Assembly (NCBI GenBank): GCA_937858705.1
Contig: CALLZM010000029.1
Coordinates: 1-44,024, forward strand
Direction of reading: 5' to 3'
Origin: an uncultured Candidatus Saccharibacteria bacterium
GTDB lineage: Bacteria > Patescibacteriota > Saccharimonadia > Saccharimonadales > Saccharimonadaceae
Length of the DNA stretch: 44,024 nt
Shown: positions 8,620 to 36,823 of the stretch, in pieces
Position numbering within the stretch: the first letter of the stretch is position 1
How the letters are laid out: each line of letters opens with the position of its first letter
The notes under the pieces: model-generated
The model's database searches: none
What the model saw: the letters and a program-made list of their open reading frames with translations, nothing else
Told to the model about the DNA's origin: nothing
Made by a program: the position numbers and the translations under genes

Positions 8620-9837
8620 TTAATTAGTGACTAACGCAAATGAATTTTTACCTTTTTTTAGTAGACATTGTCGTTCAATACTAATGTCTTCCGCTATTTT
8701 CTCTCCATTCACACTCACCGCCCCACCAATGATTAAGCGCCGTGCCTCACCGAGACTCGTCGTCATATCAGCATCAACCAATAACTCAGAAACTCGTTTA
8801 CCACCAACAACCGTCGGAATTTCGGCGCTTAGTTGTTCGATATCACCACCGTTCAAGCTATCGAAGTTTTCCCCACCAAATAACACTTTCGTCACTCTCT
8901 CGACCGATTCTCGTCGATCTACTCCATGAATGAGCTCAGTCACTTCCCGTGCAAGTATCTTTTGCAAGCTTCGCGCGCCGGGATTCGCTCGATGATCTGC
9001 GATAATGGCTTCTACCTCACTCTTGGGCAGCAGCGTATATATCTTAATGAGATCTTCCGCCGTTTCATCATCGGTGTTGAGCCAAAATTGATAAAACTTA
9101 TAGGGACTCGTCTTGGCTGGGTCCAGCCATACTGCGCCGTCTTCCGATTTGCCAAATTTTACACCAGTCTGTTTGTTCACGACCAAAGGAGTCGTGAATA
9201 CATGCGCTTCACCACCCTCTAGTTTTCGAATCAAGCTTACACCGGTAATACTATTTCCCCATTGGTCAGCGCCAGACACCTGTAGTGATACACCTTTTTC
9301 GCGGTATAAATGCAAAAAGTCATACCCTTGTATCAACGAATAGCTAAATTCGCCATAGCTGATACCACTGCCGCCTTCACCAATGCGGGCTTTAATAAAA
9401 TCGCGATCAAGCAATTGTGTCATCGACACATGCTTGCCAATTTTATGCAAAAATTCGATATAATTTATACCCTGAAACCAGTCATAGTTATTGACCGTCT
9501 CAAATGTCTTGCCCGCAAAAATGGTCTCAAACTGTCGCCGTAAACACTCAACATTATGTGCGACAACTTTTTCGTCTTTTATGTCTCGCTCTTGCTTTTT
9601 GCCGTCTGGGTCGCCTATCATACCAGTTGCACCGCCCGCGAGCAGAATAGCTTCATGCCCATGATCGATAAGATGTCGCACCAACATAGCTGCCGCCAAA
9701 TTGCCAATGGTCATTGAGTCCGCCGACGGGTCAACACCCCAATAAAACTTCCTCGGCTCATTAATATCTTCTATGTTCGCAAACGACGACTGATTAACAA
9801 ACCCTCGCCACGCTAATTCCTCAGATAATGTAGTCAT
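8620..9837 (-). CDS. tyrS: Tyrosine--tRNA ligase
   Basis: Class I aminoacyl-tRNA synthetase, 405 aa. Recognised by the N-terminal GVDPSADSMTIGNLAA block, the tyrosine-binding SYSLIQGYDFLHL and QVSGADQWGNS segments, and KFGKSEDGAVWLDP (the KMSKS-equivalent loop). A C-terminal S4 RNA-binding domain ends the protein (RLIIGGAVSVNGEKI). The HIGH signature is replaced by T43-I-G-N46, so both catalytic-motif histidines are changed. Asn at the second position occurs in other class I synthetases. Thr at the first is less usual. It is the first gene of the tyrS-pgm-recG-PLC-rsmD run and its mRNA should be leaderless. Confidence 0.95.
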   Translation of the reverse strand: MTTLSEELAWRGFVNQSSFANIEDINEPRKFYWGVDPSADSMTIGNLAAAMLVRHLIDHGHEAILLAGGATGMIGDPDGKKQERDIKDEKVVAHNVECLRRQFETIFAGKTFETVNNYDWFQGINYIEFLHKIGKHVSMTQLLDRDFIKARIGEGGSGISYGEFSYSLIQGYDFLHLYREKGVSLQVSGADQWGNSITGVSLIRKLEGGEAHVFTTPLVVNKQTGVKFGKSEDGAVWLDPAKTSPYKFYQFWLNTDDETAEDLIKIYTLLPKSEVEAIIADHRANPGARSLQKILAREVTELIHGVDRRESVERVTKVLFGGENFDSLNGGDIEQLSAEIPTVVGGKRVSELLVDADMTTSLGEARRLIIGGAVSVNGEKIAEDISIERQCLLKKGKNSFALVTN

Positions 9838-9843
9838 ATATTC

Positions 9844-9861
9844 ATTGTATCATGATACAAT
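9844..9861. promoter_or_regulatory. Palindromic divergent promoter of tyrS and mrcA
   Basis: ATTGTATCATGATACAAT is a perfect 18-bp palindrome. Each half is an extended -10 (TGATACAAT). The minus-strand -10 (9844-9849) ends six bases before the tyrS ATG (leaderless). The plus-strand -10 (9856-9861) starts a transcript at about 9868, about 29 nt before the mrcA ATG. Only one polymerase could occupy the site at a time. Confidence 0.75.
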
Positions 9862-9896
9862 AGAGAGCAGATAATGCTTATGGGAAGTATGGAGTT

Positions 9897-12524
9897 ATGA
9901 CGAAAAAGACGAAGCGAAAGCCATTGAAGCTATACACTAACCTGTCAAAAAAACGACAGACCAAAAAGGATGCTGCAGTTCGACGGAAGGCCGAATATCT
10001 TGCATCGTTACCGAAACATCCGGTAAAACGATTTTTCTATCGTCTTCATCCAAAACGAGTGCTCGCGTATTGGTTCAGCAAGCGCGGATTATTTATGATG
10101 TTAAAGATTGTTGGCGTGACGGCGCTTCTGATTGTACTTACTGCTGGAGGAATTGTCGCCTATTATCGCAAAGATATTGAGGCCATCCGACCTGATAAGC
10201 TTGCCGAAAGAGTGAAAACGACGGTCACTACTTATTATGATCGTAACGACGAGGTCCTTTGGGTAGACAAAGGAAGTGGCGATTGGCGACTCACTGTGCC
10301 AGGAAATGAAATTAGCGACTATGTAAAGAAGGCAACCGTCGCCATTGAAGACAAAGATTTTTACGAACATGACGGTATTAGCATTTCGGGCATCATCAGA
10401 TCATTTCTCAGTAACAGCCAGGGCAACTCAGTTCAGGGTGGCTCTACCATCACGCAGCAGCTCGTAAAGCAAGTGTTTTTGGCCGCTGACGCGCATAAAC
10501 GAGGTTTCGATGGTATACCGCGAAAGATTAAAGAAGTTATCTTGGCCATCGAAGTTGAACGAATGTACACCAAGGAGCAAATTCTTGACCTATACCTCAA
10601 CGAATCGTCCTACGGTGGAGCTCGAAATGGTGTCGAATCAGCCGCTCAGACTTACTTCCAGAAGCCTGCCAAAGATCTTACTCTTGCTGAAGCGGCCCTC
10701 GTCGCGGGCATTCCCAACCAACCTGGGCTCTACAATCCGTATAATATCGAAGGTCACGAAGCACTCATTGCCAGACAGCATCGCGTCTTAGATAAAATGG
10801 TCGAAGCCGGATTCATCAAAAAAAGTGAAGCCGACGAGGCCAAGAAAGTTGCTATTCTCGATACCATCAAGCCACTCGCCGACCAGATGGAAGGCGCTAA
10901 AGCTCCGCACTTTGTGCTTATGGTACGATCGCAATTAGAGAAAGAACTAGGACAAACCATTGTTGGAAGAGGCGGACTGAGCGTCAAGACTACGCTTGAT
11001 TTACGAATTCAGAAAAAAGTCGAAGAGGCCACAAAGAAAATGTTCGAGTCATATTGGCCAAACTATGCAGGCTTCACGAATAGCGCTTCAACTGTCATCG
11101 ATTCACAGACTGGACAGATAGTGGCCATGCTTGGTAGTCGCGACTTCGACTACGCTGGCTTTGGTCAAGACAATGCAGCCATGGCATACATTCAACCAGG
11201 ATCAACCATCAAACCGCTCGTTTATGCTGAGCTCATGAAAGACCGTGGTGCTGAAAATCAAAACTATGGCAGCGGCTCCATCTTAGCTGATGACAGATCT
11301 ATGGATGCGATCTACGGTGCACCGCTCAAAAATGCCGACCGTGGATATAGAGGTAGCATCAACATACGAAGCTCCCTCGGTCTATCAAGAAATATTCCTG
11401 CTGTTAAGGCTATGTATATCGCGGGGGTTGAACCAACACTGAAGTTTATTCGAGAAATGGGCGATACGAGTTATTGTACAGAAGGAGTAGAGAAACAAGC
11501 CGGCCTAGCATCAGCTATTGGCGGTTGTGGTGTTCGACAAGTTGAGCATACTAATGCCATCGCCTCTTTGGCACGCATGGGCGTTTACAAGCCGTATAGC
11601 ACCATCCTAGAAGTAAAGAATACACAAAATGATGTCTTAAAACGCTTTGAAGATAGTTCGAAACAAGTGCTTGATCCTCAGGTGGCATATATTATCAACG
11701 ACATTCTCGGTGACGACAATGCTCGTGCTGGATTGTACGGAAGAAACTTCTATGGCCTCGTAGTGCCGGGAGTGCGAACAGCAGTGAAAACTGGTACCTC
11801 AGATAAAGGCGGCAACGCGAAAGATATATGGACAGTATCATACAGCCCAGCCCTCACTATGTCGACTTGGCTCGGTAATCCAGATACATCCGTTCTGAGA
11901 AATGGAAACTCTTCTATTCCCGCTCAAATTATCGGCGATGTCATGGAATATGCTCACAAACAGGTGTATGCCAAAGAGAAGAAATGGAAATCTGGCGACT
12001 GGTTCACAAAGCCAAAGGGTATTCAAACAATTGGAAGCGAATTATATCCATCTTGGTATAATAAATCCTTCCAGCAAGCCAAAAAGAAAGTAACATTCGA
12101 TAGGGTGTCAAAGAAAAAAGCTACAGAATGTACCCCTGAAGAGGCAAAAATCATCGTAGAGGTCATTGAAGCCACCGATCCGATTACAAAAAAGAAATCA
12201 CTCCAAATCACCAATGGCTACGACCCAAGCAAAGAAGATGACGCCCATAAATGCAGCGATCGTAAACCAACTGTCTCAGTATCAATCTCATCGGATGGCA
12301 AAAACATCACCGTTAACTACACAAGCGGCCGCTATGTCATAGAAAAAATAACGCTAACCGTTAACGGTCGTCCATTTAAAACACTATCCGCGAGTGGTAG
12401 CGGCAGCCAGACAATACCCTATACCTCGAGCAACAGCTCATTCACTGTCAATGCAGCAGTTATTGACAAAGGATACTACTCGGCATCGTCATCAGATAGC
12501 TGGGAAGAAGATTCTGACGATTAG
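9897..12524 (+). CDS. mrcA: Class A penicillin-binding protein (PBP1A-like)
   Basis: Bifunctional peptidoglycan glycosyltransferase and DD-transpeptidase of 875 aa, anchored by one helix (about 65-90) after a basic cytoplasmic tail. The GT51 domain shows catalytic E151 in AIEDKDFYEHDG and GGSTITQQLVKQ at 181-192. The transpeptidase domain has S436-T-I-K439, S497-R-N499 and K631-T-G-T. A C-terminal beta domain (about 760-865) ends in an acidic Ser-rich tail. GGAG lies only two bases before the ATG, with GGGAAG further upstream. The gene is monocistronic between the palindromic promoter and a strong bidirectional terminator. Confidence 0.95.
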   Translation: MTKKTKRKPLKLYTNLSKKRQTKKDAAVRRKAEYLASLPKHPVKRFFYRLHPKRVLAYWFSKRGLFMMLKIVGVTALLIVLTAGGIVAYYRKDIEAIRPDKLAERVKTTVTTYYDRNDEVLWVDKGSGDWRLTVPGNEISDYVKKATVAIEDKDFYEHDGISISGIIRSFLSNSQGNSVQGGSTITQQLVKQVFLAADAHKRGFDGIPRKIKEVILAIEVERMYTKEQILDLYLNESSYGGARNGVESAAQTYFQKPAKDLTLAEAALVAGIPNQPGLYNPYNIEGHEALIARQHRVLDKMVEAGFIKKSEADEAKKVAILDTIKPLADQMEGAKAPHFVLMVRSQLEKELGQTIVGRGGLSVKTTLDLRIQKKVEEATKKMFESYWPNYAGFTNSASTVIDSQTGQIVAMLGSRDFDYAGFGQDNAAMAYIQPGSTIKPLVYAELMKDRGAENQNYGSGSILADDRSMDAIYGAPLKNADRGYRGSINIRSSLGLSRNIPAVKAMYIAGVEPTLKFIREMGDTSYCTEGVEKQAGLASAIGGCGVRQVEHTNAIASLARMGVYKPYSTILEVKNTQNDVLKRFEDSSKQVLDPQVAYIINDILGDDNARAGLYGRNFYGLVVPGVRTAVKTGTSDKGGNAKDIWTVSYSPALTMSTWLGNPDTSVLRNGNSSIPAQIIGDVMEYAHKQVYAKEKKWKSGDWFTKPKGIQTIGSELYPSWYNKSFQQAKKKVTFDRVSKKKATECTPEEAKIIVEVIEATDPITKKKSLQITNGYDPSKEDDAHKCSDRKPTVSVSISSDGKNITVNYTSGRYVIEKITLTVNGRPFKTLSASGSGSQTIPYTSSNSSFTVNAAVIDKGYYSASSSDSWEEDSDD

Positions 12525-36529: not shown

Positions 36530-36823
36530 TTACCTCTGTCGTTGCATAGTATCAATCAGCTGATTGATGAAGTCTGCGAGTGGCGGAAAGATGTTGCCAA
36601 ACTTTCCGAGTAGCCAAACCAGCAGGGCGACAAGCAGTGTTGCGCCGAGCACACTCCCAAAACCAAAAAACAATCCTCTGAAAAAGTTCATCGAAAATAC
36701 TTGACGACGAGAGCTATGAAAGTCGTAGAATAAATCTTCAAGAATTGCCCTTCTGGCATCGTCTTCCGAAGACTCTGCAATCTTTGTCGTCATTTTTTTG
36801 TTCGTCGTTTTGGATTTCGTCAT
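36530..36823 (-). CDS. DUF5665-like small membrane protein
   Basis: A 97-aa protein. The N-terminal half is charged (Lys/Thr then Glu/Asp-rich). NFFRGLFFGFGSVLGATLLVALLVWLL forms one membrane helix (about 46-72), followed by an amphipathic tail. The N-F-x2-G-x3-G pattern before the helix resembles DUF5665 proteins, whose function is not established. The match is from memory of the pattern, not a search. Leaderless start. Confidence 0.7.
   Translation of the reverse strand: MTKSKTTNKKMTTKIAESSEDDARRAILEDLFYDFHSSRRQVFSMNFFRGLFFGFGSVLGATLLVALLVWLLGKFGNIFPPLADFINQLIDTMQRQR

Follow-up and report, generated by a model that had tools for sequence, protein, structure and literature searches.

The window, by which we mean the whole 44,024-nucleotide stretch of DNA analysed, belongs to a Saccharibacteria genome of 910 kb and contains a perfect palindrome between the divergently oriented genes tyrS (minus strand) and mrcA (plus strand). 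Pfam places the tyrS product among the class I tRNA synthetases (W/Y) and finds a TyrS C-terminal domain in it; its best matches among named genomes are Saccharibacteria. The mrcA product was assigned by Pfam as a transglycosylase-transpeptidase. The palindrome, ATTGTATCATGATACAAT, is an 18-bp dyad with no loop that lies exactly where the initial annotation had placed it, and each of its strands reads TGATACAAT. The features of the locus are collected in Table 1.

Table 1. Coordinates (window positions) of the features at the tyrS/mrcA locus.
Feature	Position	Strand	Remarks
tyrS, tyrosyl-tRNA synthetase, 405 aa	8620..9837	-	PF00579, E 1.8e-67
Predicted tyrS transcription start, A of the ATG (leaderless)	9837	-	Placed from box position
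Perfect 18-bp palindrome, two abutting putative extended -10 boxes with zero gap	9844..9861	.	
Putative extended -10 box of tyrS, TGATACAAT	9844..9852	-	Box scored in relatives; 6 nt before the ATG
Putative extended -10 box of mrcA, TGATACAAT	9853..9861	+	Box scored in each of the 37 regions
Predicted mrcA transcription start (9868 or 9869)	9868	+	Placed from box position
mrcA leader element, AGATAATGCTTATGGGAA, related to TAATAYTGCTTATGGGAA of relatives	9869..9886	+	
Mini-ORF MGSMEL*, six codons, stop overlapping the mrcA start (ATGA)	9880..9900	+	Predicted
mrcA-type class A penicillin-binding protein, 875 aa	9897..12524	+	PF00912, PF00905

On both strands a TG stands one base before a TATAAT-like hexamer, and the hexamers at the -35 positions of the two boxes match TTGACA at three of six positions at most. 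A sigma-70 scan that included the -35 element found no sites between 9600 and 10100, where 1.1 were expected. Since neither side has a convincing -35, both boxes would be extended -10 promoters. They share with promoters of that type (TGNTATAAT) the TG one base before the hexamer, the lack of a good -35, and a purine at -16. Extended -10 promoters have a TRTG form; in the window, by contrast, position -17 of either strand is C rather than T, this base belonging to the CA of the partner box. The minus-strand box ends exactly 6 nt before the ATG of tyrS (A at 9837), which places the transcription start at the start codon, so that tyrS is predicted to be leaderless. On the plus strand 35 nt lie between the box and the mrcA ATG at 9897. 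The two starts predicted from the box positions are 31 bp apart (9837 and 9868). Both boxes look like real promoters, and the initial annotation of two back-to-back extended -10 promoters is supported by the sequence, with counterparts of the boxes in most relatives.

Leaderless placement looks common in this genome. In 260 kb, an ORF of at least 60 aa has its start codon 4-11 nt downstream of 33 of the 101 TGNTANAAT motifs, as compared with 1 of 30 for the reversed motif; the corresponding counts in the window are 8 of 15 and 1 of 6. We also picked TANAAT hexamers by their leaderless position, with no requirement for TG, which gave 79 sites in this genome and 491 in genus g2. Upstream of such hexamers are found T at -17, a purine at -16, T at -15 and G at -14, with the full TG at only 34 of the 79 sites of this genome. 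Distances of 6 and 7 nt from box to start account for 65 of these 79 sites, which had been picked at 5-8 nt. At the third hexamer position the frequencies in this genome are 0.39 for C and 0.38 for T; C being as common as T, the occurrence of TACAAT on both sides of the palindrome is unremarkable. In the stretches surveyed (contig C6 of G000, L146-L158; genus g2, L159-L197 and L212-L287), genes predicted to be leaderless from a -10 box 6-7 nt ahead of the start codon are apparently common in both G000 and g2. The earlier proposal that tyrS is leaderless thus stands as a prediction, its box being at a distance from the start codon that is common in the genome.

The divergent tyrS/mrcA pair is conserved, and 37 distinct intergenic regions, the window included, were compared. 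They were obtained from 68 loci by removal of 24 whose retrieved stretch gave no match to mrcA, four that were not divergent and adjacent (L007, L012, L017 and L034), and three duplicates (L100, L108 and L109). Some of the regions kept are near-identical (e.g., L098 and L099), so the 36 relatives are not fully independent. The box for each direction was chosen in every region by one rule, the consensus score alone. A box in the mrcA direction was found in 37 of 37 regions and begins with TG in 35 of them, including the window. The two boxes are separated by a gap of 0 solely in the window and by 27-31 bp in 25 of the 36 other regions; gaps in the other 11 run from -38 to 105, with doubtful picks among them, as the boxes chosen in regions with gaps of -38, -13 and 52-105 may be wrong. 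Both congeners have the two boxes, with gaps of 29 and 37, and in both the distance from the tyrS box to the start is 7-9 nt. The form TGATACAAT occurs at tyrS in one relative (L015) and at mrcA in none of the 36 regions. The mrcA box of the window is unlike the mrcA boxes of all 36 relatives; it has two differences from their commonest form, TGCTATAAT, and both changes make it match the tyrS box. Strong -35 elements in the relatives were considered and rejected: in 25 regions the mean best match was 2.96 of 6 for tyrS, against 2.54 in shuffled spacers, and 2.52 for mrcA, against 2.52, leaving at most a weak element for tyrS. The nearest TyrS relatives of the window genome have 70-72% identity, and at this distance the loss of spacer DNA is something that we infer; the simplest history would be that about 30 bp were lost in the lineage of the window.

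In about half of the regions a leader element is present 3' of the mrcA box, at a near-constant distance from it. A variant of this element (TAATAYTGCTTATGGGAA in relatives) was scored in 20 of the 37 regions, the match in L089 being probably spurious; the carriers are L003-L005, L008-L010, L091-L093, L095-L097, L102, L104, L106, L107, L110, L111 and the window (9869-9900). The element contains an ATG, 15-19 nt past the box, with which a mini-ORF begins; in many cases this mini-ORF stops at the start of mrcA or close to it, and in L003 and L106 it continues in a long frame. Translational coupling of the mini-ORF to mrcA is a guess. Searched for genome-wide at up to three mismatches, the leader element gave five matches, the window's own included, as compared with nine for the reversed control.

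Close divergent pairs of extended -10 boxes are common across much of the family, and most of all in one genus. The window genome has nine pairs with a gap of 0-30, and none of the reversed pattern. Of 295 genomes from the family, 284 contain one such pair or more, but the enrichment is uneven. The 74 genomes of genus g2 carry 2044 pairs, about 28 each, with control counts of at most one per genome. The two congeners have two and zero close pairs, and in some genera and genomes the number is not above the control (e.g., three and three in G185). The class is represented by 392 genomes, of which 76 have zero-gap pairs and three the reversed pattern, and 75 of the 76 genomes belong to the window's own family, the exception being G297 (counts read from the table). 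In a draw from the phylum, 13 of 286 genomes have zero-gap pairs and two have the control pattern. Most of the nine zero-gap loci outside the class (L203-L211) are without two close divergent starts, so these may be chance matches; two have no reverse ORF, and both starts lie at 4-11 nt only in L205.

Among 30 zero-gap loci that we examined, 29 have ORFs of at least 50 aa diverging on both sides. A start codon lies 4-11 nt from the box in 46 of 59 cases, and on both sides in 16 of the 30 loci; in eight loci the distance is exactly 6 nt on both sides, leaving just 30 intergenic bp from one ATG to the other. The 30 loci represent 16 gene pairs, as read from clusters, and the partners vary. The compaction is thus a repeated one and no accident, with the window as a half-leaderless example. 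Seven of the 30 loci are one and the same pair, found in g2 genomes (L124, L134, L135, L136, L139, L140 and L142, with Pfam run on L124 only): genes for triosephosphate isomerase and for a HAD/PMM-like phosphatase, which diverge from a region of 30-33 bp.

The distribution of gaps in the 74 g2 genomes, with shared descent included in the counts, is uneven: 73 pairs have a gap of 0, two a gap of 1, 52 a gap of 2, and seven a gap of 3, followed by 662 at 4-8, 73 at 9-10 and 1175 at 11-30. We rejected zero as a favoured spacing, since 73 of the 2044 pairs have it and 66 would do so if all 31 gaps were equal. Gaps of 1 and 3 are nearly empty, again in counts that include shared descent. Of the 52 sites with a gap of 2, 51 read CA-pyrimidine-purine-TG, which keeps the purine at -16 on both strands. 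This gap structure, including the purines at gap 2, supports the use of both boxes, in counts that include shared descent. By a hand estimate, the preference for T-purine-T-G is not enough to account for how strongly gap 3 is depleted. When taken raw, the gaps in some 1.5 Mb of g2 seemed to peak near 6, 16 and 26. Helical phasing was rejected: after merging of orthologues no period between 8 and 14 stood out (R2/N at most 2.3) among 130 pairs in 80 clusters from 2.27 Mb (gaps 0-41, about 48 weighted pairs). A second tight class in g2 consists of overlapping boxes, TGNTANAATTNTANCA, with a gap of -16, and 11 of these have ORFs on both sides in 2.27 Mb. This class is similar to bidirectional promoters with a shared -10.

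As such, the palindrome is of little importance. Perfect palindromes of at least 18 bp are not rare in themselves: one is present in the 260 kb of contig C6 and two in the 44-kb window, that at 9844-9861 included, and calculation from base composition gives an expectation of about 1.2 for 304 kb. The other in the window, ATCAATCAGCTGATTGAT, is at 36551-36568. Among 75 listed zero-gap sites 15 are perfect palindromes, and 14.6 are expected from re-pairing of the half-sites. Perfect symmetry is thus at chance level and looks accidental; roughly every fifth zero-gap pair has identical boxes, and the symmetry arises because the two boxes have the same letters. None of the 36 orthologous tyrS/mrcA regions contains the palindrome. 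Relatives keep both boxes and lack the symmetry, the very outcome that the initial annotation had named as speaking against it, and its suggestion that the symmetry matters is not borne out. The zero-gap sites show no sign of selection for symmetry; in the lineage of the window alone it may have acted. A spacerless, perfect 9+9 dyad lying over both core promoters does have the classic look of an operator, and the site had been proposed to bind a dimeric regulator, which would repress or switch both genes. However, the sequence is the sole match in the 44-kb window at up to three mismatches (0.01 expected in shuffles) and the sole site in the 910,258-base genome at the same threshold, so it is not a recurrent site; the two boxes account for every base of it; and, with the dyad missing from the orthologous regions and symmetry at the chance level, we consider an operator very unlikely. 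That the inverted repeat, intergenic as it is, forms an RNA hairpin acting as a terminator or attenuator is barely credible. It is A+T-rich and without a loop, and because it lies upstream of both predicted starts it would be in neither mRNA. A terminator scan of 9600-10100 gave one site, elsewhere (10008-10026), and a search of Rfam gave no known RNA at the palindrome, its sole match being off the site and far below the gathering score.

The site is probably a pair of back-to-back extended -10 promoters of the housekeeping sigma factor that has been squeezed to zero spacing. Loss of the spacer DNA between two older promoters in the window lineage would have brought the boxes into contact. RNA polymerase would then bind the palindrome in one orientation or the other, giving in one case a leaderless tyrS mRNA from about 9837 and in the other an mrcA mRNA that starts at about 9868 and has some 29 nt of leader. 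One polymerase would fit at a time, at little cost if the promoters are of modest strength, and the perfect symmetry would be a by-product and not itself a functional signal. It is quite unlikely that one box alone is used, the other being a chance copy and its gene having a promoter elsewhere. The perfect identity could have come from local inverted duplication of a single box, and both starts are predicted ones; against this, the mrcA box lies at a near-constant distance before the leader element, as it does in the relatives that have the element, and the tyrS box is placed 6 nt from the ATG like those of other leaderless genes here. The overlap could also have been kept by selection as an either/or switch in which transcription of tyrS and of mrcA compete. 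The geometry would forbid simultaneous binding, as two polymerases with starts about 31 bp apart are sterically implausible, and a study of E. coli bidirectional promoters reports that competition appears once one side is activated (PMC12825309). A switch is nevertheless unlikely, since the zero gap is not conserved in any relative, the spacing of 27-31 bp prevailing instead, and the gene pairs at other zero-gap sites vary. We know of no activator or signal for the tyrS/mrcA site. Exclusive occupancy, moreover, would not by itself give mutually exclusive expression. According to the same study, basal transcription was too low for competition at the five E. coli bidirectional promoters tested, with starts 10-23 bp apart, and interference appeared only on activation of one direction (PMC12825309). 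Of the earlier claim that tyrS and mrcA are mutually exclusive, the implausibility of simultaneous binding at about 31 bp can be retained; exclusive expression, given the E. coli work (PMC12825309), cannot.

The preferred reading, of two abutting promoters, brings the site close to the bidirectional promoters of E. coli and Salmonella described by Warman, Grainger and colleagues, which likewise have symmetric core DNA, polymerase binding in either orientation, steric exclusion and divergent genes (PMC12825309, PMC10268837). The published definition is divergent starts 7-25 bp apart with reciprocally overlapping -10 elements (PMC10268837). The E. coli and Salmonella examples mostly have a spacing of 18 bp, whereas in the window the boxes abut and the predicted spacing of 31 bp (9837/9868) falls outside the 7-25 bp range; the hexamers (9844-9849 and 9856-9861) do not overlap but are separate, 6 bp apart. 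The window site would therefore work like a bidirectional promoter in a looser, abutting form. The tyrS start codon at the predicted transcription start recalls the leaderless genes of Mycobacterium tuberculosis (PMC3898074); the cases here differ in being read from sequence, in occurring in Saccharibacteria, and in lying sometimes on both sides of one promoter region. In the literature searched on Saccharibacteria leaderless genes, starts and promoters and on leaderless or back-to-back divergent promoters, with most subscription journals outside its coverage, we did not find this arrangement, nor did we find start-site mapping in ultrasmall bacteria. The site is ordinary in kind, a tighter and partly leaderless form of divergent promoters; it is the wider pattern that is modestly new.

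It is quite possible, if somewhat short of probable, that a recurrent, ultra-compact type of promoter is in use in Saccharibacteria, most of all in a single family, in which touching extended -10 boxes, often leaderless on both sides, start the transcription and translation of two divergent genes from as little as 30 bp. The orientation of the polymerase would be the sole choice, and the gaps would be set by which bases can be shared, with 0 and 2 occurring and 1 and 3 nearly absent. The window site would illustrate the degree to which divergent promoters can be compacted in ultrasmall bacteria, and the pattern of compaction predicts that leaderless translation is common in them. If both of the abutting boxes are active, the site would be a natural minimal case for polymerase competition without regulators.
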